64,000 nt of DNA from an uncultured Bacteroidota bacterium (GTDB lineage: Bacteria; Bacteroidota; Bacteroidia; Flavobacteriales; Flavobacteriaceae). Each line of letters opens with the position of its first letter. Within the stretch, counting starts at the first letter, position 1. Under the pieces are notes generated by a model, which searched no databases, was not told where the DNA came from, and saw only the letters and a list, made by a program, of their open reading frames with translations. The position numbers and the translations under genes are program-made. The stretch spans positions 1-64,000 of the forward strand of contig CABXBH010000004.1 in assembly GCA_902510415.1 (NCBI GenBank). The letters run 5' to 3'. Shown in pieces: positions 19,491-34,757 of the stretch.

Positions 19491-20357
19491 GTGAAAAACA
19501 AAAAAGAAGACAAAGGATTCTTAAAGAGCCTAATTAACGACTACAAAATAGTCATTTCAAGTGAAGACACATTTGAAGAAAAGCTTTCTTTTAAAGCAAA
19601 TAAAATAAATGCTTTTATAATTATGCTTGTCTATTCAATAATATTAATTTCCTTTACAATAAGCATAGTTTTCTTCACCCAGCTTAGAGAGCTAGTGCCC
19701 GGATATTCTTCTTCAGACTTGCTAAATAGGGCTATATATTTGACCGAAAAAACAGATTCTCTAGAACAGCAAATTGCATTAAACAATAAGTTTTATCAAT
19801 CAATTGAAGATGTTCTTTCTGGAAAAACAGAGGATTTTATCCCAAAAGAGATCTTAGAGTCAGATACTAATTACAACAATTTTGACATAAATACAATTAA
19901 CCCAAATATTCAAGATTCAATTCTAAGAAGTTATGTTGACAACGAGGACAAGTTTAATCTAACCAAAAACGAATTAGTAATCGAAAACAAAATGTTTTTT
20001 ACACCAATTACGGGAGAAATAACACAAGGCTTTAATTCAAAAGACAATCACTATGCTTTAGATATTTCAGCCGATATCGGAACCCCTGTTAAGTCTATCT
20101 TGGAGGGTAAGATAATTTTTTCAGAGTGGTCTGTTGATACAGGCTATGTGATTATAATCGATCATGGCCAGGATATTATTTCTGTATACAAACACAACTC
20201 TAAAGCTTTAAAAAAGCAAAATGATTTTGTTCAGGCAGGGGAGGTTATAGCTTATTCAGGCAATCAAGGAAATTTAAGTACAGGCCCTCACCTACATTTT
20301 GAACTTTGGAAAAATGGAACACCCATCAATCCTCAGCCCTTGCTAAACTTCAACTAA
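19491..20357 (+). CDS. M23 family metallopeptidase (membrane-anchored peptidoglycan hydrolase)
   Basis: A 288-aa protein (GTG 19491) with a cytoplasmic N-terminus, one membrane helix (about residues 38-60), a predicted helical periplasmic stalk and a C-terminal LytM domain. The zinc ligands are intact: H-x3-D in HYALDIS and HxH in GPHLHFELW, with a further DHG segment between. It should cut peptide crosslinks in peptidoglycan. Flavobacterial homologues open with a similar cytoplasmic and membrane region. The GH3-family gene follows after 2 bp. Confidence 0.9.
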   Translation: MKNKKEDKGFLKSLINDYKIVISSEDTFEEKLSFKANKINAFIIMLVYSIILISFTISIVFFTQLRELVPGYSSSDLLNRAIYLTEKTDSLEQQIALNNKFYQSIEDVLSGKTEDFIPKEILESDTNYNNFDINTINPNIQDSILRSYVDNEDKFNLTKNELVIENKMFFTPITGEITQGFNSKDNHYALDISADIGTPVKSILEGKIIFSEWSVDTGYVIIIDHGQDIISVYKHNSKALKKQNDFVQAGEVIAYSGNQGNLSTGPHLHFELWKNGTPINPQPLLNFN

Positions 20358-20359
20358 GC

Positions 20360-21862
20360 ATGTTAGCGCATAAGCTTTTAAAATTAGCAGCCTATATAGC
20401 AAAAAACCGAATAAATAATTGGGCAAAGAATCCTATTAAAACTCAAGAAAACCAATTCAAGCAAATACTAAATAAGGGTTCAAAAACTTTATTTGGCAAA
20501 GACCATAATTTTGATAAAATTAAAAATTATGAAGATTTTAAGCAGAGTGTTCCTATTCGTGACTACGAGTCCCTTAAAAGCTATGTTGAACTGATTAAAT
20601 CTGGAAAGGAGAATGTTTTGTGGCCAGGCAAGCCTGTTTATTTTGCAATAACCTCGGGCACTACTTCGGGGGCAAAATATATCCCTATTACTAAAGATAG
20701 TTTACCGAACCATCTTAATGGCGCTAAAAATGCACTTTTAATGTATGTTGCTCAAACCGGAAAAACAAAATTCATAAAAGGAAAGTTTATTTTTATTCAA
20801 GGAAGTCCAGTTTTAACAAAAATCTCAGGAATATTAACCGGTAGACTTTCAGGCATATCTGCACACCACATACCTTTTTACATGAAAAATTTTATGCTTC
20901 CCTCTTGGAAGACTAATATTATTTCTGACTGGGAGAAAAAAGTAGATGAAATAATTAATGAAACCCTGAATGAGAACATGACCATAATTAGCGGAATCCC
21001 TTCATGGCTTCAGATGTATTTCGAGAAAATAACAGAAATTACAAATCAAAAAATTTCATCTGTTTTCCCAAACTTTAATCTTTTAATTTATGGCGGTGTA
21101 AATTTTGAACCCTATAATAAAAAATTCTATACTCTAATTGGAAAATCAATTGATAGTATAGAAATCTTTCCTGCCAGTGAAGGGTTTTTTGCCTTTCAAG
21201 AGAATCAAGAAAGAAAGGACTTGTTACTCATTTTAAATGCTGGAATATTTTATGAGTTTATTAATGTAAAAGATTTTAGAGAAAACAAAATGAATAGAAT
21301 TTCTATTGAAGATGTAGAGAAAAACATAAACTATTTGATGATTATTTCAAGCTCTGCAGGATTGTGGGGCTATAATACTGGTGATACAATAATGTTTACA
21401 AGCATTAAGCCTTATAAAATTAAAATTACAGGAAGAATTAAACAACAATTATCAGCTTTTGGAGAGCATGTAATCGTTAAGGAAGTAGAACATGCAATTG
21501 AGCAAGCAATTTCTAAAACAGGACATCTCGTTAATGAATTCACTGTTGCTCCTAGGTTTAAATCAGAACATCAAAATTCATGTCATGAGTGGTTTATTGA
21601 GTTTGCTAATGAGGACGCTAATATAGAAGTTTTCGCATCACATCTAGACAATGAATTACAAAAGCAAAACAAATATTATAAAGATCTTATTATTGGAAAA
21701 ATTATTGATAAACCAAGCATTAAAAAAGTTTCAAAAGGCGGTTTCAAAAAATACATGAATAGTATAGGAAAACTTGGCGGACAAAATAAAATTCCAAAAA
21801 TTGCAAACGACAGAAAAATTGTTGATGAAATAAAAAATCTTAATCTAATTACCAGAAGCTAA
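20360..21862 (+). CDS. GH3 family acyl-adenylating protein
   Basis: A 500-aa member of the GH3 branch of the adenylate-forming superfamily, known in plants for conjugating hormones to amino acids and common but uncharacterised in Bacteroidota. The ATP-binding motif is FAITSGTTSGAKYIP (about residues 93-107), with later motifs IEIFPASEGFFAFQ, GLWGYNTGDT and KITGRIKQQLSAFGEHV. The substrate is unknown. ATG 20360 is chosen because the frame upstream lies inside the peptidase gene. Position right after the M23 peptidase suggests cotranscription. Confidence 0.88.
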   Translation: MLAHKLLKLAAYIAKNRINNWAKNPIKTQENQFKQILNKGSKTLFGKDHNFDKIKNYEDFKQSVPIRDYESLKSYVELIKSGKENVLWPGKPVYFAITSGTTSGAKYIPITKDSLPNHLNGAKNALLMYVAQTGKTKFIKGKFIFIQGSPVLTKISGILTGRLSGISAHHIPFYMKNFMLPSWKTNIISDWEKKVDEIINETLNENMTIISGIPSWLQMYFEKITEITNQKISSVFPNFNLLIYGGVNFEPYNKKFYTLIGKSIDSIEIFPASEGFFAFQENQERKDLLLILNAGIFYEFINVKDFRENKMNRISIEDVEKNINYLMIISSSAGLWGYNTGDTIMFTSIKPYKIKITGRIKQQLSAFGEHVIVKEVEHAIEQAISKTGHLVNEFTVAPRFKSEHQNSCHEWFIEFANEDANIEVFASHLDNELQKQNKYYKDLIIGKIIDKPSIKKVSKGGFKKYMNSIGKLGGQNKIPKIANDRKIVDEIKNLNLITRS

Positions 21863-21907: not shown

Positions 21908-22882
21908 ATGAAAAATAATTTTAGAGAAAAGGAAGAGCTAGATATCATAGTGTTAATTGAAAAGTTAAAACTTATGTTACTAAGCATTTTCCTTCAAATA
22001 TTTAGAAGATCTAGACAGTTTCTTTCATCTTGGAAACAACTTTTAGCTATAATACTAACGGGTATTGCTTTAGGCTATTTTCTAACAGACAAAGACACGC
22101 CTGCTGCAAAAGAAGCAACGATTTTGGTAAAAATTAATTTTGATGCAGGGAATTATGTATACGATGCAGTTGATATGATAAATCTTAAAATTTCAAGTGA
22201 AGACTCTGAATTTTTTGCTCAAGAAATGAAATTAAATAAAGACGAGACAGTTGATGAGGTCTCTATTTCGCCTGTTATTGATATCAAAGATATTATGGCT
22301 AAAGATGTTAAGGCAAACGAAATAAGAGCTTTGTTTGAAAATTTAGAATATGAGGATGGGTTTTCCGTTACTGAAGGCTTTAAATCAGATTATGATTACC
22401 ATTTTATTAAAGTAAGGGTGTCCAACAATTCTTCAATTAGTACTGTAAACAAAATCATAGATTATTTTAATGATAATCCATTATTTACTGAGCTCAGAGA
22501 AAGAAATCTTCAAAGAATTTCAAGTATCATTTTAGATAATGAGCAAACTATTATGCAAATTGACAAACTTCTGAATTATTACATAAGCGACACTAAAACC
22601 AACAGCTCACAGCTTTACATTGACAATAAAGATGTTAGACCTAACGAGCTTATTAAAACTAAGATTTCCTTACAAAATGAGAATCAAGAACTAAAAAGAG
22701 AAAACCTGACAACTAAAGAAACAGTTATGTTAATAAATGAAGCAAACATTTTAATTGAAAACAATTCCATATCCTCAAACAAAATGGTCTATTATCCTGT
22801 ATTGTTTTTGCTGATTTATATTATTGTTTCTATAATAATTAGCCTATACTCATATCTTGATAAATTAGATAGAGCTAGTTAA
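21908..22882 (+). CDS. Wzz-like chain-length determinant family protein
   Basis: A 324-aa protein with two membrane helices (about residues 45-62 and 295-316) and a periplasmic, coiled-coil-rich middle, the layout of polysaccharide co-polymerases that set glycan chain length. It lacks the Walker-type tyrosine-kinase domain of Wzc, so it resembles O-antigen Wzz rather than a capsule regulator. Sequence match to the family is weak and the call leans on topology and on position as first gene of the polysaccharide locus. The leader contains an A/C-rich repeat (CAAACAAA). Confidence 0.6.
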   Translation: MKNNFREKEELDIIVLIEKLKLMLLSIFLQIFRRSRQFLSSWKQLLAIILTGIALGYFLTDKDTPAAKEATILVKINFDAGNYVYDAVDMINLKISSEDSEFFAQEMKLNKDETVDEVSISPVIDIKDIMAKDVKANEIRALFENLEYEDGFSVTEGFKSDYDYHFIKVRVSNNSSISTVNKIIDYFNDNPLFTELRERNLQRISSIILDNEQTIMQIDKLLNYYISDTKTNSSQLYIDNKDVRPNELIKTKISLQNENQELKRENLTTKETVMLINEANILIENNSISSNKMVYYPVLFLLIYIIVSIIISLYSYLDKLDRAS

Positions 22883-22883
22883 A

Positions 22884-24167
22884 ATGTCAATTAAGGATCT
22901 AACGCAAAAAAGTTTTTCTGTTTTAATAATCAGAAGTTTAGGAGTATTACTTTTATTCGGGTTCACCCTATTCATTACTAACTTTTTTACCGCTGAAAAT
23001 GTTGGCAGGTATGATTTCGTGAGATCTGCACTGATGGTTTTAGGAGGGCTTGCATTGATGGGCACAAACCAATCAATTATTTATTATTCGGGGCTACTAA
23101 AAGCGAGAAAAAGTATAGAGTCAATTAGAGCTATATATTCTAAAATGATTAAAATTATCTGCGTATTAAGCTTTATTGTTTTGGCCCTATACATTGTTTT
23201 CTTTAGCCAAGAAAGGGTTAATGAATTTTTCAACAATGAAGAGTCATTTTCACTTCTTTTGAAATCTATTTTGACGTTGGTTTTTTTCGCACTTACGATG
23301 CTTAATATAGACACCATTAGAGCGCTTCAAAAAACAGTTTTATCAGAGATTTATCGAAGCCTGTTTAGATATTTACCTGTATTTTTTCTAGCAGCTGTTT
23401 TGCTAAAGTTTAATCAACAAGCTTATTTGGTTGAAGCATATCTTGCAGGCTTTGTATTGCTTTCTTTTTTCTCGAGCGTTAGAGTCTATAAAATATTTAA
23501 AACACTACAAAACCCAAACAAAAAATCTGAAAGGTTTTCAATGCATGAAATTTTCAAAACTTCAGCTCCGATGGCTCTTAGCGCTATAGCATATTTTATT
23601 ATGCAAAGTATAGATATTATTATTTTATCAATATATGAGGGATTTGACCAAATTGCATATTATTCAGTGTCTGTAAAATTAGCAATGGTAACAACCTTAG
23701 CGCTGATGTCTGTAAATATTGTAATTGCCCCTAGAATTGCGGAAATATATGAAAAACAAAATCTGCAAGATATGCAGCAGCTAATTAAGCATTCTACAAG
23801 AATAATCTTTTTTATAAGTTTATTTGTTTTAAGCATTTTATTTCTTTTTTCTAAAGAGATATTAAGTCTCTTTGGGCCAGACTATATAAAAGCAAACCAA
23901 GCTTTACTTTTTTTGTTAGCTGCTCAATTTTTTAATGCAGTTTCAGGTCCAGGAGCCATTTATTTGAACATGACTGGGAGACAAAAAACTCTAAATAAGA
24001 TTCTAATTTTAGGCTTGATTATCAATATCTCTTTGAATTTTTACTTTATCCCGGTTGAAGGAATTAATGGTGCCGCTAAGGCAACACTAGTTAGTCTAAT
24101 AATTTGGAATGCAATAACTACTCTTCTTGTCTATTCAAAAGACAAAATCAAAATCTTTTTAACCTAA
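22884..24167 (+). CDS. Polysaccharide flippase (Wzx-like, MOP superfamily)
   Basis: A 427-aa protein with about 12 hydrophobic segments and the opening pattern of the oligosaccharide-flippase family (SVLIIRSLGVLLLFGFTLFI, FFTAENVGRYDFVRS). It should move lipid-linked repeat units across the inner membrane. The C-terminal half carries GPGAIYLNMTGRQKTLNKIL and SLNFYFIPVEGINGAAKATL, typical for Wzx. It begins one base after the Wzz-like gene's stop. Confidence 0.88.
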   Translation: MSIKDLTQKSFSVLIIRSLGVLLLFGFTLFITNFFTAENVGRYDFVRSALMVLGGLALMGTNQSIIYYSGLLKARKSIESIRAIYSKMIKIICVLSFIVLALYIVFFSQERVNEFFNNEESFSLLLKSILTLVFFALTMLNIDTIRALQKTVLSEIYRSLFRYLPVFFLAAVLLKFNQQAYLVEAYLAGFVLLSFFSSVRVYKIFKTLQNPNKKSERFSMHEIFKTSAPMALSAIAYFIMQSIDIIILSIYEGFDQIAYYSVSVKLAMVTTLALMSVNIVIAPRIAEIYEKQNLQDMQQLIKHSTRIIFFISLFVLSILFLFSKEILSLFGPDYIKANQALLFLLAAQFFNAVSGPGAIYLNMTGRQKTLNKILILGLIINISLNFYFIPVEGINGAAKATLVSLIIWNAITTLLVYSKDKIKIFLT

Positions 24168-24168
24168 T

Positions 24169-25068
24169 ATGAAAAAGCCAAATTTCATCATTTCAGGATT
24201 TCCAAAGTGCGGAACGACTTCTCTCCACCATTATTTAAACGAGCACCCACAGATTTTTATGCCCAGCCAAAAAGAGTTACATTTTTTCACATTTAAAATT
24301 CTATCAAAACTTAAAGGTGGACCAAAAGACAAAATTGTAAAAGAAACACAGATTGATAGTTCGGAAAAATATTTAAGATTCTTTAAAAACATTAAAAATG
24401 AGTTGGCTATGGGCGACACATCTCCTTCATATATAAATTATCCAAGCGAGTTTTTAAAAATAAAAAAATATTTAAATGACCCTAAGATTATAATTGTTTT
24501 GCGAGACCCGATTAACAGAGCATATTCAAACTATTTACATTTAAAAAGAGAGCAAAGAGAAACTCTTTCATTCAATGAGGCAATAGATGCTGAAGAGGAA
24601 AGAAAAAAAAACAAATACTCAGACTTTTGGTACTATAAATTTAATTCTACATATTTTGAAAAAGTAGTTAAAGCCAAAGAAGTGTTTAGCGACGTGCTAA
24701 TATTAACAATTGAACAACTGAATAAAAACCCTGAGAAAACAATTAAGCAGGTTTGTCAATTTTTAAAAGTGGACGACAGCTTTAAAATTGAACAAATTTC
24801 ACGGACGTTTAATTTAGGAGGAAACTACAAAATAAATTTAATCACCAAAATTCTTTTCCAGCCCTCTTGGTTCAAAAATAGAATTAAGCGAGTTATTAAA
24901 CCAACACCTTTTATCAAAATTATCTTAATGAAGCTTTCAAGTTTTTTTATTTCTAAGCCAGAGACAATTGATGATGAAACTCTAACACACTTAACAAAAT
25001 ATTTTAAAGAAGATGTTGCAAAACTAAAAAACATTAGCGTAGACACTTCAAACTGGAGAGAATATTAA
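24169..25068 (+). CDS. Sulfotransferase domain protein
   Basis: A 299-aa cytoplasmic enzyme of the PAPS-dependent sulfotransferase family. The 5'-phosphosulfate loop is FPKCGTTSLH (residues 11-20) and the 3'-phosphate-binding segment is IIVLRDPINRAYSNYLH near residue 107. A basic residue in the PSQKELHFF segment may take part in substrate handling, as in heparan-type sulfotransferases. In this locus it most likely sulfates the glycan repeat unit; this is inference. PAPS synthesis genes are not in the window. Confidence 0.88.
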   Translation: MKKPNFIISGFPKCGTTSLHHYLNEHPQIFMPSQKELHFFTFKILSKLKGGPKDKIVKETQIDSSEKYLRFFKNIKNELAMGDTSPSYINYPSEFLKIKKYLNDPKIIIVLRDPINRAYSNYLHLKREQRETLSFNEAIDAEEERKKNKYSDFWYYKFNSTYFEKVVKAKEVFSDVLILTIEQLNKNPEKTIKQVCQFLKVDDSFKIEQISRTFNLGGNYKINLITKILFQPSWFKNRIKRVIKPTPFIKIILMKLSSFFISKPETIDDETLTHLTKYFKEDVAKLKNISVDTSNWREY

Positions 25069-25069
25069 A

Positions 25070-26437
25070 ATGAACAAACTAACAATTAACAATATAATCC
25101 TTCCATTTTTGCTTTTAGGAATATTTTTTATTCCTTTTAATTCGTGGTCTGGTATTGGTTTTTTGGGAGAGTATTACAGAGACTCTTGTTTTTTATTCTT
25201 TTCCTTTGCTTTTGTGCTATCGCTATTTAAAAGAAAGATTGAAATTCCTTTAAATAATTTGATATTCCAGTTTTTAATTTTATTTATTCTATGGGCGCTA
25301 TTGGCTACGATATTAAATGCCAACAATATTTCGGAATACTATTTTAAACAGACCTCAGGAATAGGAAGGTTTGTAAATCAGTTTGGGTCTTTGATTATTG
25401 CCGCAATTATAATCCCCTTAACATTTTATAACGGCTTTAAAAAAATTAATATTAATAAGGTTTTTCGATTAATAAGAAGAGCGATTTTAGCATCTTTAAT
25501 TATAGCTTTCATATATTCTGTAATTGAGATTTTAATTGTGAAGATGAATATGCTATACTTAAAAAAACCACTTTTAAATCTATTTGATTATTTCCCTTTT
25601 ACCGAAGCTAAAACAGATATGAGACTTCAACGAATTTCATCTGTTACTTTTGAGCCACCAGCACTAGGAACATACTTGCTGTCAATAGCAGGATGGATGT
25701 TCAGTTATATATTAACCGAAAAGAAGCTTTTGAAATATTTCCCAACACTAATAGTCCTGTTTTTAGGTTTTATGTCCGGATCAAGAGCAGCTTTTTTCGC
25801 AATTATAATTCAATTTATAGTAGCAGTATTGTTTTTTGTTAAGCATAAAAATTCAACGAATAATATTTATAAAATAGTCCTTGGTGCTTCTGTCATTTCA
25901 ATTTTAATACTAGGATATTTTAACAAACCAATTATTGAATATATAAACAAAGAAATTAATTCCTTTAAGCTTGATGATTCAACACACTCCCTTTCCAACA
26001 AGTCTAGATTTGGTATTCAACAAGCAATGTTTAGAGTTTTTAAGGAAAACCCGATTTCTGGCACAGGATATGGGCTTCAAGCATTTGAATCAAGAAAAAA
26101 ATACCCATCATGGGCAAAGAGAAATAATTGGGAATTTAGATTAAAATATCTAAACCAAAATGATAAAAGATTTCCCCCGGGATACAACATGTATCTAAGG
26201 ATTCTTAGTGAGACAGGATTAGTGGGGCTATTGTTTTTTGGACTAATTTTATTACAAATATTTTTATGGTGCTACAACAACCTAAAATCTGAAAATGCAA
26301 TTATTGCTTTTATAATTTTAATTTCAATGATAGGCTTTTCACTTAATTGGTTTAAAATGGACTCATTTAGAATTTATTTTTTTTGGCTATGCTTGGCGCT
26401 GATATGGGTTATTGAACAAAAGACAGAAAATGGATAA
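25070..26437 (+). CDS. O-antigen polymerase/ligase family membrane protein 1
   Basis: A 455-aa protein with about 10-12 membrane helices and the Wzy_C/WaaL-type large periplasmic loop (roughly residues 290-370), framed by GSRAAFFAIIIQ and NPISGTGYGLQAF. After the loop comes GYNMYLRILSETGLVGLLFF. The position where ligases carry His-Asn-x-Tyr is Tyr-Asn-Met-Tyr here. That favours a polymerase over a ligase, but the family cannot be separated safely by eye. It overlaps the next gene by 8 bp. Confidence 0.75.
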   Translation: MNKLTINNIILPFLLLGIFFIPFNSWSGIGFLGEYYRDSCFLFFSFAFVLSLFKRKIEIPLNNLIFQFLILFILWALLATILNANNISEYYFKQTSGIGRFVNQFGSLIIAAIIIPLTFYNGFKKININKVFRLIRRAILASLIIAFIYSVIEILIVKMNMLYLKKPLLNLFDYFPFTEAKTDMRLQRISSVTFEPPALGTYLLSIAGWMFSYILTEKKLLKYFPTLIVLFLGFMSGSRAAFFAIIIQFIVAVLFFVKHKNSTNNIYKIVLGASVISILILGYFNKPIIEYINKEINSFKLDDSTHSLSNKSRFGIQQAMFRVFKENPISGTGYGLQAFESRKKYPSWAKRNNWEFRLKYLNQNDKRFPPGYNMYLRILSETGLVGLLFFGLILLQIFLWCYNNLKSENAIIAFIILISMIGFSLNWFKMDSFRIYFFWLCLALIWVIEQKTENG

Positions 26438-27227
26438 AAGATTAATTATAACAATTCCGCACTATAATAATTCAGAGGGCTTGACCCGTACAATTAAATC
26501 AATTAATGAGTCCTTTGAGATTGACATCATTATCACTGATGACGGCAGCAAAAACAAGTTAAACGAAAAAGCGATTAATTCTTCTTTTAAAAATAATGGA
26601 AGAATATTTTTTAAATATTTGGACAAAAACTATGGTGTCGGTATCGCAGCTAATAAATGCTTGGAGTTTGTTAAAAAGTCCAATTATAAATATGTGGCTA
26701 GACTAGACGCTGGAGATATTTGTTACAAAAACAAATTTTCAAAACAGATTGACTTTTTAGAAAAAAACAAAAAAGTTGTGTTGGTTGGCACATGGGCTAG
26801 GGTTTTAGATCATGAAGGAAATTTAATTTTTTATATAAAACATCCAACGAATCACAATACCATCAAAAGAAACATGTATCTAAATAGCATGTTTGTAAAT
26901 CCAACAGTATTATTTAAGACTTCAGTTTTACAAACTGTTCCAGAGTACCCGGTAAAATATAAGGATGCAGCTCAAGACTATGCATTTTTTTTCAAAGTAA
27001 TTAAGCGTTTTGAATGTGCAAATATGCCTGAGGTTATGCTAGATTATATTATCGATAAAAACTCTATTTCAACCAAAAAAAGAAAACTACAAGTAAAAAA
27101 TAGAATCAATATTATAATCGAAAACTTTAAGTTTGGTGTTTATCCAATTTATGGATTACTTAGAAATCTTGTGTTGTATTTCTTTTCTAGAGGCTCAACA
27201 ACGCTGATTAAAAAAAGATTAAATTGA
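26430..27227 (+). CDS. Glycosyltransferase family 2
   Basis: A 265-aa GT-A enzyme. It opens with MDKRLIITIPHYNNSEGLTR, then IDIIITDDGSKNKLNEKA with the nucleotide-sugar-binding acidic residues, and a DxD-type site in YVARLDAGDICYKNKF. It transfers a sugar from a nucleotide donor to the growing lipid-linked unit; neither donor nor acceptor can be deduced. ATG 26430 overlaps the previous stop and fits the family start; the TTG at 26412 is less likely. The C-terminus is basic with a hydrophobic stretch, suggesting membrane association. Confidence 0.85.
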   Translation: MDKRLIITIPHYNNSEGLTRTIKSINESFEIDIIITDDGSKNKLNEKAINSSFKNNGRIFFKYLDKNYGVGIAANKCLEFVKKSNYKYVARLDAGDICYKNKFSKQIDFLEKNKKVVLVGTWARVLDHEGNLIFYIKHPTNHNTIKRNMYLNSMFVNPTVLFKTSVLQTVPEYPVKYKDAAQDYAFFFKVIKRFECANMPEVMLDYIIDKNSISTKKRKLQVKNRINIIIENFKFGVYPIYGLLRNLVLYFFSRGSTTLIKKRLN

Positions 27228-27228
27228 C

Positions 27229-28431
27229 ATGAAAAATACATTAGAAAATATATATAATTATTTAGGCTTTTTAGTGTGTCTTTCAATTCCATATATGACA
27301 CAAGCAAAGGCTTTTGCCAATGTAGGTATGATTTGCTTGTTTCTAATTCTTATTGCCATATTTGACAAACAAAAACTTTTAGAAATAATAAAAAATAGAT
27401 TTTTTAAATTATTTTCAATATTTCTGTTATTTATAACCCTATTTACACTTTTTAATTTCACATTTTTTGTTGATTTTTCTGAAACCAGAAAAATAGCACA
27501 AATCATTCTCTTAATAACCTTGTTTTTGTTTGCCGATGATAAGCGTTTTTTGATATATGGATTTATATTTGGGGTCTTTATAAGCAGTCTTATATCTGGA
27601 ATAAACATCATAAATTATTATTTAAACTCCTTTGAGCTTTTAATGTTAAAAACTTCAGTTGAAGACTTATTTGTCACCCAGAGACTATACCTTGGATTTT
27701 TCATAATAATTTCAGTAATATTGCTGGGCCATATTTATCAAACCAGCATAAACAAAATTCAAAAGCATTCAAGCCTGCTGTTAATTTTTTATTTTATTTT
27801 CATGCTGTTTCTAATTTCATCAAGAAGCGCTTTAATAATTGCAGCTGTGGTTTTTATAACCACAATTATTTATCAATTTAAACCTCTACATAGTTTGCTA
27901 TTGCTGATTGGGATTGGTTTAATTTTTTCTACAATTATTTTTACAAACAAAAATTTATCCAGCAGATTTTTATATTCTGAAGACTCAGTTAGATCTTCTT
28001 TTTTTGATAAGATTAAAACACATGAGCCTAGATATGATATTTGGAAATTTTCAACTCAAATCTTTAAAGATGAAAAGCCGTATTTTTTTGGTATTGGAAC
28101 ATTTAGAACTCAGGAATTATTAGTTTCTAAATATCAATTAATGCCAATTGAAAAAAGAAAGAATTGGTTTATCGAAAGAAATTTTAACACTCATAACCAG
28201 TACATTGATATTGTTTTATCATACGGAATTATCGGGCTTTTAATCTTTATGATATTCATAAAAGAACTTATCACATTTTTCTATAAGAACATTTATTCCT
28301 TAAACTTGGTGCTAAGTTTAATTTTATTTTTATTTATTGAAAACTTATTTCATAGACAACTTGGCTCATTCATTTTTGCTCTAACTTTAGTTTTAGCATT
28401 ATCCATAATTAATTCAAAAAAACCCACTTAA
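27229..28431 (+). CDS. O-antigen ligase/polymerase family membrane protein 2
   Basis: A 400-aa polytopic protein with the Wzy/WaaL pattern: SSRSALIIAAVVFI mid-protein, a loop with EPRYDIWKFSTQIFKD and FGIGTFRTQELL, then NTHNQYIDIVLSYGIIGLL (about residues 317-335). This includes the His-Asn-x-Tyr segment typical of WaaL-type ligases. It is the second such gene in the locus. I infer that one polymerises repeat units and this one may ligate them to lipid A-core. Its stop shares a base with the next ATG. Confidence 0.75.
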   Translation: MKNTLENIYNYLGFLVCLSIPYMTQAKAFANVGMICLFLILIAIFDKQKLLEIIKNRFFKLFSIFLLFITLFTLFNFTFFVDFSETRKIAQIILLITLFLFADDKRFLIYGFIFGVFISSLISGINIINYYLNSFELLMLKTSVEDLFVTQRLYLGFFIIISVILLGHIYQTSINKIQKHSSLLLIFYFIFMLFLISSRSALIIAAVVFITTIIYQFKPLHSLLLLIGIGLIFSTIIFTNKNLSSRFLYSEDSVRSSFFDKIKTHEPRYDIWKFSTQIFKDEKPYFFGIGTFRTQELLVSKYQLMPIEKRKNWFIERNFNTHNQYIDIVLSYGIIGLLIFMIFIKELITFFYKNIYSLNLVLSLILFLFIENLFHRQLGSFIFALTLVLALSIINSKKPT

Positions 28432-29513
28432 TGAAAAAAATATTGGTTGTTGATTGGCTTGATAAGTATGGAGGAGCAGAAAGAGTTTTAACTGTTTTAA
28501 ACAAACAATTTGACTTTGATCAATGCTTTACATTGGTTAATGCAATGTCAAAGCAGGATTTAAAAAAAGTTTTCTCAAATAAAAAAATTCAAATTGTTGA
28601 ATCTAAACTAAGATTCCTAAAGTCTAGCTTTAGATATTTATTTTTTTTATTCCCTTTGCTTATTTCAAGATTTAAGCCAGATAAAAAAGTAAAGCTAATT
28701 ATCTCTTCCTCATTTTCTGTTGCGAAAGGCTTTAAAAAGAAAGCACATCAATTGCATATTTGTTATTATCAAGCCCGAAATCAAAGATACATTTGGGATA
28801 AAGAGGATATTTATTTTTCATCATGGCAAAAATTTGTTCTAGCTCCGCTTTTATATGTGTTGCGCAGCATAGATATCAGACACTCAAAAAGACCTGATTA
28901 TATGATTGCAAATTCTTTTTTTATAAAAAATTGGATTAAAGAAACTTATAATATTGATTCAACGGTCATTTACCCGCCTGTTGATACGGAGCTATTTAAG
29001 TTAGAAAAAAATAAAGAAGACTATTTCATCACAACAGCAAGGCTGGAGCCTTATAAACGAGTGGACTTACTAGTTAATGCTTTCAATAAGACTCAAGAGA
29101 CGCTATATGTAGTTGGTGATGGATCTATGAAAAAAAGATTAAGAAAAATTGCGAATCAAAACATAAGGTTTTTTGACTTTCTTGAGCCGAAACAAGTGAT
29201 GCAATTGGTTGGCAAGGCAAAAGCATTTGTTCATGCAGGTATCGAGGATTTTGGGATTGCGCCTGTTGAGGCTCAATCTTGTGGAACTCCAGTTATTGGT
29301 TATAACATGGGAGGGCTTTCAGAAACTGTAATTGACAATAAAACAGGAATATTATTTAACGAACAATCAATAAACGCAATTTTAAATGCAATAAAACGTT
29401 TTAAAATAACTGAATTTGATTATACTTATATAAGCAGGCATGCAAGTAAATTCTCAGAAGAGAATTTTGCCAAGAATATACAGGATTTTATAGATTCTAA
29501 AATAAAAGAATAA
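28431..29513 (+). CDS. Glycosyltransferase family 4
   Basis: A 360-aa GT-B enzyme. The N-terminal motif DWLDKYGGAERVL is the acceptor-side glycine-rich loop. C-terminal donor-site blocks are TTARLEPYKRVDLLVNAFNK, VVGDGSMKKRLRKIA and the EX7E region AGIEDFGIAPVEAQSCGTPV. This is a retaining transferase, often for mannose- or fucose-type donors, but the specificity is not readable. It starts at the ATG overlapping the preceding TAA and is followed after 8 bp by the initiating transferase. Confidence 0.88.
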   Translation: MKKILVVDWLDKYGGAERVLTVLNKQFDFDQCFTLVNAMSKQDLKKVFSNKKIQIVESKLRFLKSSFRYLFFLFPLLISRFKPDKKVKLIISSSFSVAKGFKKKAHQLHICYYQARNQRYIWDKEDIYFSSWQKFVLAPLLYVLRSIDIRHSKRPDYMIANSFFIKNWIKETYNIDSTVIYPPVDTELFKLEKNKEDYFITTARLEPYKRVDLLVNAFNKTQETLYVVGDGSMKKRLRKIANQNIRFFDFLEPKQVMQLVGKAKAFVHAGIEDFGIAPVEAQSCGTPVIGYNMGGLSETVIDNKTGILFNEQSINAILNAIKRFKITEFDYTYISRHASKFSEENFAKNIQDFIDSKIKE

Positions 29514-29521
29514 AATGCCAA

Positions 29522-30880
29522 ATGGTTAAAAAGTACGCAGGAAGGTATTCAAAATTTTTAAGACCAATTTCTATAGTTTTTGATTTATTGGTAGTTAGCT
29601 CTTTCGTTTATTTGTTTTTAGACAGAAGCCTGCTTAAGCCTATTCCTGTCTTAGTTTTTTCTACGCTATGGATCATTTCAGCAATGATAACCAATTTTTA
29701 TGAGGTCTACAGGTTTACTAAGTTGATTAGAATTCTCTACTATATTTTTTATCAATTATTGCTATTCTCTATTGCTGTTTTTGCTTTTTTTGGAGTCGTT
29801 GAAAACCCAAATCCTGGTTTATTTCAGACTTTATTTTTTCTCTTCTATACATTTTTATTAACATCATTGTTTAAGCTCACCTTGTTCTATGCACTACAAA
29901 GTTATAGGCTAGGTTTTGGGGGTAATTTTAGGAAGACCATCATTATAGGGAACAACGAATCTGTTTCAGAGCTAAAAGAGTTTTTTATTAATCAAAAGGA
30001 GCTAGGTTATGAAAATCGAAAGACATTCAAGTTTAATAATGCATCAGAGTTAAATCTTGAGGAATGTTTTGATTTTATAGTATCAAGAAATATTGATGAA
30101 GTTTATTGTTCTGCTAACGAATTAGATGAAAATCAAATCAACCTTCTCATTGAATTTTGTGAAAATAACTTTAAAATATTAAAATTTATTTCCAAAAGGG
30201 GAGGGTTATTATCAAAAAAATTAAAAACGGATACCTACGGCCTTTCTACAGTTCAATCTTTGAGAGAGATGCCGCTTTCCAATGATTTTAATACTTTTTT
30301 AAAACGCGTATTTGATATTACCTTTTCATTACTAATAATAATACTTTTTCTTTCATGGATTACCCCAATTATTGCACTTTTAATTAAAATTGAGAGCCGT
30401 GGCCCAGTTTTTTTTAAACAGACAAGAAATGGCATTAAATTCAGGGAATTTACATGTTATAAATTCAGGTCAATGATTGAAAATACTGACGCAGATATTC
30501 AACAAGCCACAAAAAACGATGAGAGGGTGACTGCTATTGGAAAAATATTAAGGAAAACAAGTCTTGATGAACTCCCTCAGTTTTTTAATGTGCTGATTGG
30601 CAACATGTCTGTGGTAGGCCCTAGACCTCACATGATTAAAGAAAACGAAAGATACTCTAAGTCTGTAAACAAGTTTATGGTCCGTCATTTTGTAAAGCCT
30701 GGCATAACTGGTTTAGCGCAGGTAAAAGGTTTTAGAGGAGAAATTGAACAAGACGAGGATATAATTAATAGGGTAAAGTACGATATTTATTATTTAGAAA
30801 ACTGGTCTTTAATCTTGGATTTAAATATTGTATTTTTGACATCAATTAATTTTTTAACAGGTCAAAAAAAGGCATACTAA
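29522..30880 (+). CDS. Undecaprenyl-phosphate sugar phosphotransferase (WbaP/WcaJ type)
   Basis: Initiating enzyme that places the first sugar-1-phosphate on undecaprenyl phosphate. The N-terminal part has four hydrophobic helices and a CoA-binding-like module. The C-terminal bacterial sugar transferase domain starts near residue 258 (FLKRVFDITFSLLIIILFL) and contains GPVFFKQTRNG, CYKFRSM, the catalytic region LRKTSLDELPQFFNVL and MSVVGPRPHM. At 452 aa it has the usual length. It is the last gene of the polysaccharide run before purD. Confidence 0.92.
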   Translation: MVKKYAGRYSKFLRPISIVFDLLVVSSFVYLFLDRSLLKPIPVLVFSTLWIISAMITNFYEVYRFTKLIRILYYIFYQLLLFSIAVFAFFGVVENPNPGLFQTLFFLFYTFLLTSLFKLTLFYALQSYRLGFGGNFRKTIIIGNNESVSELKEFFINQKELGYENRKTFKFNNASELNLEECFDFIVSRNIDEVYCSANELDENQINLLIEFCENNFKILKFISKRGGLLSKKLKTDTYGLSTVQSLREMPLSNDFNTFLKRVFDITFSLLIIILFLSWITPIIALLIKIESRGPVFFKQTRNGIKFREFTCYKFRSMIENTDADIQQATKNDERVTAIGKILRKTSLDELPQFFNVLIGNMSVVGPRPHMIKENERYSKSVNKFMVRHFVKPGITGLAQVKGFRGEIEQDEDIINRVKYDIYYLENWSLILDLNIVFLTSINFLTGQKKAY

Positions 30881-30893
30881 ATTTTAAATTTTA

Positions 30894-32165
30894 ATGAATG
30901 TATTAATATTAGGCTCAGGTGGCAGAGAGCATGCTTTCGCTTATAAAATTAAACAAAGTACTTTGTGTAAAAATTTATATGTTGCTCCTGGAAATTCGGG
31001 AACAAGGGAAATAGCTACTAACTTACAATTTCAGGTTAACCAATTTGAAGATATTGTAGAAGCTATTAAAAAGTTTGAGATTAAAATGGTTATAATTGGA
31101 CCTGAGGTTCCTCTCGTAAATGGCTTAAGTGATTATATCAGCGCAAATGATGAGATCAAAGAGACTATTGTAATAGGTCCAAACAAGCATGCATCTCAGC
31201 TTGAAGGAAGCAAAGATTTTGCAAAAGAGTTTTTAAATAGACACAATATTCCAACAGCATCTCACAAAACTTTCACCGCTGAAAACATAAAAGATGCATT
31301 TTCATATATAGACTCAATGATTCCTCCTTATGTTTTAAAAGCAGATGGCTTAGCAGCAGGGAAGGGTGTATTAATTATTGACAATCCTAACGAAGCAAAA
31401 AATGAATTGACAGAAATGTTATTAAATTCAAAATTTGGGGATGCCAGCAAAAGTGTCGTAGTCGAAGAGTTTTTGGATGGAATTGAATTAAGTTGTTTCG
31501 TTTTAACAGATGGCAAAAATTATAAATTATTACCAAGTGCAAAAGATTATAAAAGGATTGGTGAAGGTGATACAGGCTTAAACACAGGAGGCATGGGAGC
31601 AATTTCTCCTCCCCCATTCTTAACAAAAGATTTTATGCGAAAGGTTGAAAAAAAAATAATTCAACCAACTATAGACGGCTTAATGAAAGACAAAATAACC
31701 TATAAAGGATTTATATTTTTCGGACTTATAAAAGTAAAAGAAGAGCCATATGTGATTGAATATAATGTGAGAATGGGTGACCCAGAATCAGAGGCCGTTT
31801 TACCCAGAATTAAATCTGATTTATTAGAGCTTTTATATTCAGTAAGCAAAGGTCAGCTAAATCATCAGGAAGTTATCATCGACAATAAAGAATCAGCTAC
31901 CGTTTTTTTGGTGTCAGGAGGCTACCCTGAGCAATATGAAAAAAACAAAGAAATATTTGGTTTAGACAAAGTTTCAGGCTCTATAGTTTTTCATGCTGGA
32001 GCTAAGTATGAAGAGGGCAAGGTGAAGACAAACGGCGGAAGGGTAATTGCTATAACTTCAATGGGAGCCACAGTAAAAGAAGCTTTGGACAAGTCCTACA
32101 ATTCTATTAAAAATATTAGTTTTGAAAAAATGAACTATCGGGGAGATATTGGATTTGATCTATAA
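30894..32165 (+). CDS. purD: Phosphoribosylamine--glycine ligase
   Basis: Second step of de novo purine synthesis: ATP-dependent joining of 5-phosphoribosylamine and glycine. It opens MNVLILGSGGREHAFAYKI. The ATP-grasp core has VLKADGLAAGKGVLI, VVVEEFLDGIELSCFVLTDG, GLNTGGMGAISPPPFL and YNVRMGDPESEAVLPRI. 423 aa is normal. It follows the polysaccharide locus by 13 bp, possibly read from the same transcript, although its function is unrelated. Confidence 0.97.
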   Translation: MNVLILGSGGREHAFAYKIKQSTLCKNLYVAPGNSGTREIATNLQFQVNQFEDIVEAIKKFEIKMVIIGPEVPLVNGLSDYISANDEIKETIVIGPNKHASQLEGSKDFAKEFLNRHNIPTASHKTFTAENIKDAFSYIDSMIPPYVLKADGLAAGKGVLIIDNPNEAKNELTEMLLNSKFGDASKSVVVEEFLDGIELSCFVLTDGKNYKLLPSAKDYKRIGEGDTGLNTGGMGAISPPPFLTKDFMRKVEKKIIQPTIDGLMKDKITYKGFIFFGLIKVKEEPYVIEYNVRMGDPESEAVLPRIKSDLLELLYSVSKGQLNHQEVIIDNKESATVFLVSGGYPEQYEKNKEIFGLDKVSGSIVFHAGAKYEEGKVKTNGGRVIAITSMGATVKEALDKSYNSIKNISFEKMNYRGDIGFDL

Positions 32166-32429: not shown

Positions 32430-33323
32430 ATGATAATAAGGTTTTTTAAAATTACAAAATTACCTCAAGTGATTACAGCTTCTATTGTGTCGCTAACAAT
32501 CATGCTTGTTCTTAAAAACGGACATACTTCATTTAATGACTTTATTTCTTTAACCGCTTTAATTTCAGCCTTTCTTTTATCACTCTTTATTATTTCAAAA
32601 AATTCAATTTTAAAAAACAATCAATTCACCACTCTAGGTTTAATTCTTTTCAGCGGAGCATATTTTAGAATGCCAACAGATATTAATATTGATATTTCAT
32701 ATATATTTTTATTGCTATCTATAAGGAGGATATATAGCTTAAAATCTAATAAAAATATAAGTAAAAAATTATTTGATGTAGGTTTTTGGTTAGCAATTTC
32801 ATGCTTTTTTAACCCTTATAATATTTTCTTTTTAATAACTGTTGTTTTAGGAATTTATTTTTTTTATAAAATTAATCTTAAAATTATATTAAAGTCAATA
32901 TGCGGCTTTTTAGTAGCAACTCTATTGCTTTTATTTTACACAAGCTATACTTCATTACAAACATTAAACGGAGATTTTATAATTAACTATTTAGATTTAT
33001 CTATTATAGCCTTGAACGCTGACAAAGCATCAATGAATAATGATTATTTTCATTGGTCTTTTGCAGTTTCATCCTGTATTCTATTTATATTTTATTCTTT
33101 TAAGTATTTTGGAAAAAATCTTTCAGAAAGAATAAAAAATCTTTTCCTTCTAATGTTTTTCTTAAATTCTTTGATTTTGGTTTTATTAATTAATGAGTAT
33201 TCGATTTTCTTATTCTTCCCTTTTCTGGTAACTTTGATAAAAATAATTTCTGAATTAAAGATGAACTTGTTTATTGAAATGACCATTTTAACAATTATTT
33301 TAATTAACTCCTATCCTTTTTAG
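32430..33323 (+). CDS. Polytopic membrane protein (probable DUF6427)
   Basis: A 297-aa, very hydrophobic protein with about eight predicted membrane segments and few charged residues outside short loops (RRIYSLKSNKNISKK; KYFGKNLSERIKN). It resembles the flavobacterial DUF6427 family by size, topology and genomic position (divergent from a DUF6341-like gene beside purD); the family label is from memory. Function unknown. The ATG at 32430 gives MIIRFFKITKLPQVITASIV. Confidence 0.65.
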   Translation: MIIRFFKITKLPQVITASIVSLTIMLVLKNGHTSFNDFISLTALISAFLLSLFIISKNSILKNNQFTTLGLILFSGAYFRMPTDINIDISYIFLLLSIRRIYSLKSNKNISKKLFDVGFWLAISCFFNPYNIFFLITVVLGIYFFYKINLKIILKSICGFLVATLLLLFYTSYTSLQTLNGDFIINYLDLSIIALNADKASMNNDYFHWSFAVSSCILFIFYSFKYFGKNLSERIKNLFLLMFFLNSLILVLLINEYSIFLFFPFLVTLIKIISELKMNLFIEMTILTIILINSYPF

Positions 33324-33341: not shown

Positions 33342-33728
33342 ATGAAAGTAGAAGTATCAAATGGTGAATTGCTAGATAAATTATCAATACTAGAATTAAA
33401 AATGTCAAATATCAGTGATCAAAAAAAACTAGTTAATATTAAAAAAGAACATAACGAACTAGACCCTTTAGCTAAAGAATTGTTTAATAAGTACGGCTTA
33501 GACCTAGAAACTCTTTATAATAATTTATGCTCTATTAATAGTCAATTATGGGTAATTGAAGATGATATTAGAGAGTGTGAAAGAAATAAGAATTTTGGAG
33601 ACCAATTTGTTCAATTAGCTAGAGCCGTGTATGTTACAAATGATAAAAGAAGTGATATAAAAAAATCGATTAATTTGTTAACTGACTCAGGCTTTGTAGA
33701 GGAAAAGTCTTACGAAGATTATCAATAA
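33342..33728 (+). CDS. DUF6165-like cytoplasmic protein
   Basis: A 128-aa soluble, helical protein. It opens MKVEVSNGELLDKLSILELK and contains CSINSQLWVIEDDIRECERN and a conserved-looking ARAVYVTNDKRSDIKKSIN segment. I recall this pattern as DUF6165, often near lipopolysaccharide-core genes; the GT9 gene following 15 bp later supports that context. No enzymatic motif is visible. Confidence 0.65.
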   Translation: MKVEVSNGELLDKLSILELKMSNISDQKKLVNIKKEHNELDPLAKELFNKYGLDLETLYNNLCSINSQLWVIEDDIRECERNKNFGDQFVQLARAVYVTNDKRSDIKKSINLLTDSGFVEEKSYEDYQ

Positions 33729-33743
33729 ATATTATAGTTTATT

Positions 33744-34757
33744 TTGGGAAAGCATTTATTAATCATAAGACTATCTTCATTTGGGGATGTAGCCATGACA
33801 GTACCTGTCATAGGATTGCTAAGGTCTAAACACCCTGAAATAAAAATTACAATTCTTACCACGGAGTTTTTTTCTGCATTATTTAGTCAAGTACCCAATA
33901 TTAACTTTATTTTCTTTGAACCAAAACATAAAACACTTTCTGGCTTATACTCTCTTTCAAAGGATATTAATAATTTAAATCCAGATTATGTATTAGACCT
34001 CCACAATGTCTTAAGAACCAAGTTGTTAAGATTTTTTTCAGCCCTTTCTTGCAATAATATTAAAGCAAATTTTATACTTGATAAAGGAAGAAAAGAAAAA
34101 AAAGAATTAATAAAAGGAGTTACGTTTAAACAATTAAAATCAATGCACCAAAGATACGCAGATGTATTATGCAGGTTGAATATTAAACTAGATTTAAGAA
34201 ATTTTAAATATTATAAAAAGATTAATATTTCTAATAAAAATTACAATTTTAATACCCAAAATAAGATCATCGGTATTGCCCCTTTTGCAGGTCATATTTG
34301 TAAGGAATACTCTTTGACCAAAATCATTGAAATAATAGCTTTTTTAAACGACACATATGAGATATTAATTTTTGGAGGACCTGGAGATGAGACTAAAAAA
34401 ATTAAAGAAATTTGTAAAACAAACAAGAATACTTACAATATGTCAACAGATTATTCTTTAGAAGAGCAAATGGGTATTATTTCTAATCTTGATTTAATGA
34501 TTTCAATGGATTCTGCAAACGGTCATATAGCATCATTATTCGGAATTCATGTGCTAACAATATGGGGGGCAACACACCCATTCACAGGGTACGCTCCTTA
34601 TATGCAGCCTGAAATAAATTCTATAACACCTGATATAAAAAGCTATCCTAAACTACCCGTTACTATATATGGCTCCAATTGCCCAAGGGATTATTTAGAC
34701 GCTATAAATAGTATTAAGACAAAAACAATTTTAAAAAGAGTAGAAGAATTAATTTAA
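33744..34757 (+). CDS. Glycosyltransferase family 9 (heptosyltransferase-like)
   Basis: A 337-aa GT-B enzyme of the ADP-heptose:LPS heptosyltransferase family. It opens KHLLIIRLSSFGDVAMTVPV, the typical GT9 start, and has IGIAPFAGHICKEYSL, IFGGPGDETKKI and a donor site MISMDSANGHIASLFGIHVLTIWG. It probably adds a core sugar to lipid A. TTG 33744 is the only start codon that keeps the conserved N-terminus. The stop overlaps the converging ferredoxin stop within a TTAA palindrome. Confidence 0.88.
   Translation: MGKHLLIIRLSSFGDVAMTVPVIGLLRSKHPEIKITILTTEFFSALFSQVPNINFIFFEPKHKTLSGLYSLSKDINNLNPDYVLDLHNVLRTKLLRFFSALSCNNIKANFILDKGRKEKKELIKGVTFKQLKSMHQRYADVLCRLNIKLDLRNFKYYKKINISNKNYNFNTQNKIIGIAPFAGHICKEYSLTKIIEIIAFLNDTYEILIFGGPGDETKKIKEICKTNKNTYNMSTDYSLEEQMGIISNLDLMISMDSANGHIASLFGIHVLTIWGATHPFTGYAPYMQPEINSITPDIKSYPKLPVTIYGSNCPRDYLDAINSIKTKTILKRVEELI

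Follow-up and report, generated by a model that had tools for sequence, protein, structure and literature searches.

Positions 21908-30880 of the window, by which we mean the whole stretch of 64,000 nucleotides analyzed here (contig C4 of G000, a Flavobacteriaceae-type genome of 1.25 Mb and 68% completeness, in genus g1 of family f1), are filled by eight open reading frames (ORFs), all on the + strand and separated, in order, by 1, 1, 1, -26, 1, -1 and 8 bases. This ORF map confirms an earlier reading of the sequence alone (the sequence-only reading), which had described eight packed co-directional genes. We refer to them as the island. Table 1 lists these genes together with a GH3 gene and purD, which bound it in all of the 17 complete intervals that we have examined. 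The GC content of the island is 0.294, against 0.312 in the rest of the window. Our best reading, which we consider fairly probable, is that the island is a Wzx/Wzy-type surface-polysaccharide locus that would make a small sulfated O-antigen-like glycan.

Table 1. Genes of the island and its two flanks (window coordinates), and fused phage proteins discussed in the text (coordinates within each viral locus). Paired values are bits/cut-off.
Feature	Position	Strand	Evidence
GH3 acyl-amido-synthetase family protein, OlsH-like (left flank)	20306..21862	+	PF03321 141.4 bits
wzz-like putative chain-length protein, 324 aa	21908..22882	+	position, topology
wzx flippase, 427 aa	22884..24167	+	MatE 59.3/24.9, Polysacc_synt 39.7/28.2
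PAPS-type sulfotransferase, 299 aa	24169..25068	+	PF13469 61.1/27, PF00685 57/22
Wzy_C protein A, wzyA (polymerase or ligase), 455 aa	25070..26437	+	Wzy_C 61.4/31.7
GT2 glycosyltransferase	26412..27227	+	PF00535 67.9/23.3
Wzy_C protein B, wzyB (ligase or polymerase), 400 aa	27229..28431	+	Wzy_C 59.7/31.7
GT4 glycosyltransferase, WbaZ-like, 360 aa	28431..29513	+	PF00534 98.7 bits, GT4 cut-off 26.4
WcaJ/EPS-like polyprenyl-phosphate sugar-1-phosphate transferase (PGT), 452 aa	29522..30880	+	Bac_transf PF02397 223.4/27
purD (right flank)	30894..32165	+	TIGR00877 471.6/288
APS-kinase-like + HIGH fusion (phrog_10255 'kinase')	L293:2608-3348		
APS-kinase-like + HIGH fusion (phrog_10255 'kinase')	L294:2599-3330		
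APS-kinase-like + HIGH fusion (phrog_10255 'kinase')	L199:1580-2362		
APS-kinase-like + HIGH fusion (phrog_10255 'kinase')	L200:3515-4351		

The family scores bear out a Wzx/Wzy-type locus with few glycosyltransferases, as had been claimed. The flippase passes the cut-offs of both MatE and Polysacc_synt, the two glycosyltransferases pass theirs in Pfam, and GT4 also matches PDB entry 2f9f ('wbaZ-1') with an E-value of 4.5e-22 over residues 183-324. The start of GT2 is probably the in-frame ATG at 26430, which would shorten the overlap with Wzy_C protein A. Three components by which a Wzx/Wzy-type locus is recognized, a PGT, a Wzx flippase and a Wzy polymerase, are found here, the last as two Wzy_C proteins. 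What does not survive is the WbaP-type initiation of the sequence-only reading: the PGT scores 223.3 with the WbaP model TIGR03022, far under its cut-off of 403, and we reject WbaP on this score. It narrowly misses the cut-off of the WcaJ model TIGR03023 (395.1 vs. 410.75) and passes that of the broader TIGR03025 (358.3 vs. 295.55), so we call it WcaJ/EPS-like instead.

The sulfotransferase had been described as dependent on 3′-phosphoadenosine 5′-phosphosulfate (PAPS), and its sequence fits this. It passes the cut-offs of two sulfotransferase families, it matches PDB entry 3rnl with an E-value of 4e-49 over residues 3-297, and the blocks GFPKCG and RDP..RAYSNY are invariant in the sulfotransferases of all 18 homologous loci (18/18). 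Blocks of this type are the PAPS-binding blocks of sulfotransferases. The protein has no hydrophobic segment.

How would these genes work together? The PGT would load a sugar-1-phosphate onto undecaprenyl phosphate, and GT2 and GT4 would extend the lipid-linked sugar into a short repeat unit; from two transferases and an initiator we would expect some three sugars per unit. PAPS is cytosolic, and thus we place sulfation before flipping: the cytosolic sulfotransferase would transfer sulfate from PAPS to the lipid-linked unit, and Wzx would then flip the sulfated unit. One Wzy_C protein would polymerize it and the other would ligate the chain, most likely to lipopolysaccharide (LPS), with the wzz-like protein perhaps setting the chain length. 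The PAPS would be supplied through an adenosine 5′-phosphosulfate (APS) kinase encoded on contig C22 of the same genome. This sequence of events is inferred, as are the sulfate in the glycan and its fate as an O-antigen; gene content, gene order, family membership, motif conservation and the exchange of the interior between fixed flanks we observe directly.

That exchange is seen by comparing the 21 genomes of the genus sample (our own and 20 further ones, completeness 56-86%). The GH3 gene is present in 20 of them, our own included, and G003 shows a paralogue only. We took the GH3 regions of 18 of the 19 other genomes, omitting G008, whose match is some 2 kb short of the end of its contig. 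Sixteen of the 18 reach purD (the other two, L041 and L017, break off within the wzz-like gene or directly behind it), which with the window makes 17 complete GH3-purD intervals. Fourteen of the 17 carry the eight-gene sulfotransferase cassette in the same order, and the remaining three (G007, G010 and G018; loci L046, L047 and L048) carry an unrelated seven-gene cassette: a wzz-like protein, Wzx, a pyruvyltransferase (PF04230), a polytopic 352-aa protein, a Wzy_C protein, another GT4 and a PGT that is 70% identical to that of the window. These Pfam assignments come from one of the three alternative cassettes, to which the other two are 76-92% identical gene by gene. A swap of gene content between purD and GH3 was one check proposed by the sequence-only reading, and it is what we observe. 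Exchangeable content between conserved flanks is characteristic of O-antigen loci, and the alternative cassette, which again combines flippase, decorating enzyme, Wzy_C protein, GT4 and PGT, adds to the resemblance. A polysaccharide pyruvyltransferase in place of the sulfotransferase would mean another anionic decoration.

The sulfotransferase cassettes themselves are mosaic. In 2 of the 14 loci gt4 has been replaced (20% and 23% identity to the window GT4, 62% to each other), and both carry a wzyB of 40-41% identity; 4 of the 14 have a different type of PGT (48-52% identity). We correlated the pairwise-identity matrices of the genes across the 14 loci. The correlation is high for GH3-purD (0.88), wzx-sulfotransferase (0.90), wzyA-gt2 (0.87) and wzyB-gt4 (0.90), and low for gt4-purD (0.15) and gt4-pgt (0.06). 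Thus, the two flanks have a common inheritance, and the genes between them are exchanged. Neighboring genes co-vary anyway, and therefore the correlated pairs do not prove functional coupling.

Outside the genus, relatives of the sulfotransferase at E ≤ 1e-20 are found in 37 of the 397 sampled family genomes, two of which are from the genus itself. We retrieved 12 regions from outside it, 4 from the small-genome genera g160 and g175 and 8 from large genomes. The order M23-GH3-eight genes-purD is identical in 4/4 of the g160 and g175 loci (L325, L326, L327 and L328). An eight-gene order that is kept in 14 of 17 intervals of the genus and in two other genera is not due to chance. In 6 of the 8 large-genome regions the sulfotransferase lies beside or near relatives of wzyA, gt2 and wzyB, and three of those six (G034, G136 and G394) have M23-GH3 upstream in the same region; G441 and G284 show no clear wzyA. 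Five of the eight (G034, G319, G395, G441 and G284) carry cysC, cysD and cysN within the same region.

These comparisons bear on whether the sulfotransferase acts on the glycan at all. It could act on a lipid or a small molecule and merely ride in the operon. The acceptor cannot be read from the sulfotransferase sequence, the adjoining GH3 protein resembles an ornithine-lipid enzyme (399.7 with the OlsH model NF052613, under its cut-off of 620), and an APS kinase was found in 0/4 carriers of the locus from g160 and g175 (75-84% complete). Set against this, the sulfotransferase stands between wzx and a wzy gene in 18/18 loci from three genera, it keeps the company of wzyA, gt2 and wzyB in most of the large-genome regions, and in 3/17 intervals it has been swapped along with the whole cassette. 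We regard a lipid or small-molecule acceptor as quite improbable. As for the GH3 protein, the name refers to the acyl-amido-synthetase family (PF03321), not to glycoside hydrolase family 3; the protein at 20306-21862 resembles the lyso-ornithine lipid synthetase OlsH, and it has a paralogue at G000:C6:2188-3669.

The failure to find an APS kinase in g160 and g175 is one of several points that weigh against a sulfated O-antigen-like glycan. Another is that the genome has an exporter elsewhere. The sequence-only reading had no sugar-nucleotide synthesis genes, no Wza and no Wzc, and this is correct for the island itself and incorrect for the genome: contig C1 has a Wza match (C1:18518), a second PGT (C1:16641), a Wzc-like protein of 787 aa (read by eye) and another Wzy_C protein. 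This exporter could in principle serve the island polymer, which would then be a capsule or an exopolysaccharide, and the initiator of the island does score highest with WcaJ/EPS models. But the C1 locus owns a PGT and a Wzy_C protein, so it looks self-sufficient; two Wzy_C proteins at the purD locus are what one would expect if one of them were a ligase; and a GT9 gene lies just downstream of the island. The apparently separate capsule-type locus on C1 favors the O-antigen fate for the island beside purD, and we consider export through the C1 system unlikely. The C1 locus (L119, G000:C1:6000-25999), with a PglC-like PGT, Wza, Wzc-like and Wzy_C proteins, has strongly different gene content in G006, G016 and G004.

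The DUF6165 and GT9 genes downstream of purD stand at 33342-34757 (and 32430-33323) of the window. In the three pyruvyltransferase-cassette loci, the stretch from purD to the next conserved gene showed no homolog of either, and the DUF6427 gene was seen in one of those three only (L047). DUF6165 and GT9 are possibly LPS-core genes that accompany the cassette.

Two of the roles claimed for the island stand only in part, which also tells against our reading of it. The first is length control. The position of the 324-aa protein fits, as do its hydrophobic stretches near both ends (one at residues 291-320, another in the N-terminal region), but the match to a Wzz domain is weak: the protein itself has no Pfam or NCBIfam match at E 0.05, and Wzz PF02706 is reached by 3 of its 23 relatives with a best E-value of 0.085. 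Profile comparisons with PDB, with Pfam and with Wzc-like proteins from the genus, the last of which gave no match, did not establish a Wzz identity. Its single-sequence structure model (mean pLDDT, the predicted confidence score, of 42.6) is too poor for use. The second is polymerization and ligation. Two Wzy_C proteins are there for the two roles. On one side, wzyB diverges in step with gt4 across the 14 loci (r 0.90), which argues that wzyB behaves like a polymerase. On the other side, the alternative cassette has a Wzy_C protein at the place of wzyB and the polytopic 352-aa protein, which has no Pfam match, at the place of wzyA, which argues that wzyB is the ligase; the two lines conflict. 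PDB sequence searches with the Wzy_C proteins gave no informative match to separate Wzy from WaaL; the lone match in one of them, a poxvirus fusion-complex protein, we take as chance. A fourth, weak Wzy_C match in the genome (C22:303, under the cut-off), first taken as a housekeeping ligase, was dropped, as its neighbors read as murG, murC, ftsQ, ftsA and ftsZ and we read it as FtsW.

Where would the PAPS come from? An APS kinase is found in 12 of the 21 genus genomes, the window genome included, where it scores 259.4 with TIGR00455 (cut-off 138.7). A Sat-type ATP sulfurylase is found in none of the 21, and a clear CysD in two, G004 and G017 (counting PF01507 matches with E ≤ 1e-43 and leaving out 8 weaker ones of 10, E 7e-5 to 9e-4). 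In the window genome the APS kinase is followed by a 151-aa HIGH-type adenylyltransferase (L120:9951-10988, G000:C22), hereafter HIGH, and the pair sits between ftsZ/galE/yqeY-like and metH/metK-like genes. HIGH is adjacent to the APS kinase in 5 of the 12 loci and one 132-aa gene apart in another 5; in the remaining two, G004 and G017, CysD and CysN adjoin the APS kinase instead (CysN-CysD-CysC; loci L125/L126, L076 and L077). The 132-aa spacer gene (L071:2005-2403; relatives in L067, L072, L073 and L074) is a second nucleotidyltransferase (PF01467, from a scan of L071). HIGH is present in 11/21 genomes, a count that omits two weak matches in long frames (G010:C7 and G018:C27, E about 4e-6), and it was not found in either CysD genome. 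For G004 this is a true absence at that place, since ftsZ to metK is one unbroken stretch in which the pair does not occur (L125/L126, G004:C2). In the large-genome relatives with a sulfotransferase, the APS kinase adjoins CysD in 13/13 examined.

This pattern suggests that HIGH (about 110-150 aa) and the APS kinase may form a compact PAPS synthase, in which HIGH would act as the ATP sulfurylase and replace CysDN in the genus, and which would be shared with phages. We put this forward tentatively, at slightly less than an even chance. Several findings pull the other way. In the four g160 and g175 genomes with the full locus, HIGH, like APS kinase, was not found. In three Deltaproteobacteria/Dadabacteria metagenome-assembled genomes (MAGs), relatives of HIGH are not beside an APS kinase; one of these genomes carries an APS kinase at another place, within a glycan locus that has no CysD/N beside it, and none was found in the two others. 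Moreover, G010 has HIGH (at a contig edge) and the pyruvyltransferase cassette, with no sulfotransferase match. Our earlier notion that genomes without the sulfotransferase go without the PAPS module was dropped on account of this genome.

In 30 aligned HIGH proteins the invariant positions include GRxQPxHxGH, R52, NP, GRxVGY and SATxIR, of which the GRxVGY block may resemble a GRD loop of ATP sulfurylases. The flavobacterial protein has no match to ATP sulfurylase PF01747 at E 0.05; the relative in L173, described below, scores 18.4 (E 0.0015, cut-off 24.3). Human ATP sulfurylase requires its HNGH motif (PMC11697783). The closest solved sequences to HIGH are adenylyltransferases of nicotinamide mononucleotide (NMN), with a best E-value of 4.8e-14, a further point against a PAPS synthase; the score with the NMN adenylyltransferase model TIGR01527 is 41.1, under the cut-off of 181.2. 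An AlphaFold model (mean pLDDT 87) adopts the fold seen in NMN and phosphopantetheine adenylyltransferases, and a shared fold does not tell the substrate. No ATP sulfurylase is among the listed PDB matches to the HIGH profile or fold, which leaves that activity possible. HIGH could instead be an NMN (or other) adenylyltransferase unrelated to APS, with PAPS made through an ATP sulfurylase gene missing from the incomplete genomes. Sequence and fold both fit this, and so do the three MAG loci (3/3), where the retrieved stretch has HIGH without an APS kinase. It does not account for HIGH being next to, or one gene from, the APS kinase in 10/12 loci of the genus with CysD/CysN in the other two, for HIGH not being found in those two genomes, or for Sat being found in 0/21. 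We hold the chances of such an unrelated enzyme to be evenly balanced.

The same two genes recur in phages. Among the 397 family genomes, a search with HIGH turned up no further close relative outside the genus. It gave one match of 36% identity, in G413, in a stretch that we take for a phage (L173:1110-2606, G413:C22), where an APS-kinase-like gene, HIGH and a sulfotransferase form a trio; 11 weaker matches (E 3e-5 to 9e-4) are outside our counts. From IMG/VR we took 94 loci, of which 80 were the best among 173 relatives in one scan and the other 14 were all that a second scan gave, and recovered the HIGH ORF in 93. Of these 93, 92 have an APS-kinase-like gene within two ORFs or fused (7 fused), 68 have a sulfotransferase within four ORFs, and none has CysD/N nearby. 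This association, too, tells against an NMN adenylyltransferase. The independent cases are few, because at 80% identity the viral loci group into no more than 8 clusters, and 72 loci belong to a single cluster; in another, with 4 members, the sulfotransferase is found in one locus. In L279 and L280, a PF03567 sulfotransferase lies between the APS kinase and HIGH.

The fused forms speak against a PAPS synthase and for an NMN or other adenylyltransferase. A sulfotransferase is nearby in 0/7 of the fused IMG/VR loci, none is annotated near the fusions of the named phages in the stretches examined, and in phage Bhz60 the fusion adjoins a NADAR gene. The four fused proteins that we scanned (Table 1) all match phrog_10255 'kinase' over its length and pass the Pfam APS_kinase cut-off, and two of the four pass that of CTP_transf_like. 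Among the titles and abstract beginnings that we searched, none describes a HIGH-APS kinase pair; subscription papers and preprints fell outside that coverage.

Our impression is that little is known of sulfated surface glycans in uncultured ocean bacteria with small genomes; a literature search aimed at them listed a single review, on an unrelated matter. That an exchangeable 9-kb island holds a sulfotransferase in some relatives and a pyruvyltransferase in others suggests that they trade charged surface decorations; that phages or grazers press for this exchange is a guess. If HIGH does act on APS synthesis, the HIGH-APS kinase pair would add one more way of activating sulfate, and a very small one, present in the genus and in many phage contigs, and it would suggest a PAPS source for phage sulfotransferases.

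How do these systems compare with known ones? In human PAPSS, an APS kinase and an ATP sulfurylase are in one chain (PMC11697783). Similarly, the APS kinase here is joined with a HIGH-type nucleotidyltransferase, as adjacent genes in the genus and as one chain in the phage phrog_10255 proteins. The difference lies in the HIGH unit, a candidate sulfurylase of 110-150 aa that does not match the Pfam ATP-sulfurylase model significantly.

Among surface polysaccharides, the putative O-antigen/capsule locus of Vibrio sp. KMM 8419 (PMC11641403) also has sulfotransferases in a marine setting, and its O-antigen part has a wzx gene and a sulfotransferase gene, as the island does. That locus is described as having 80 genes over 95 kb, with cysNDC, sugar-nucleotide genes and an ABC exporter, and no wzy; the island has eight genes, without cysNDC, sugar-nucleotide genes or an ABC exporter. 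Cobetia marina KMM 1449 (PMC11766843), also marine, likewise has a sulfated polysaccharide, a capsule whose locus includes PAPS genes and a sulfotransferase gene. That locus is of the ABC-transporter type and has about 70 genes, among them cysN/C, cysD and cysQ, whereas the island is of Wzx/Wzy type with the PAPS genes elsewhere in the genome.

In general type the island resembles the Wzx/Wzy-dependent O-antigen clusters, which have a PGT, glycosyltransferases, Wzx and Wzy_C between conserved flanks, with the interior exchanged. The island differs from them in its mid-operon sulfotransferase, its two Wzy_C proteins, and the lack of sugar-nucleotide genes and of a recognizable Wzz domain. The locus as such belongs to a known type of gene cluster, to which it adds a sulfotransferase-bearing example; more unusual is the APS kinase-HIGH pair, through which these cells may make activated sulfate.

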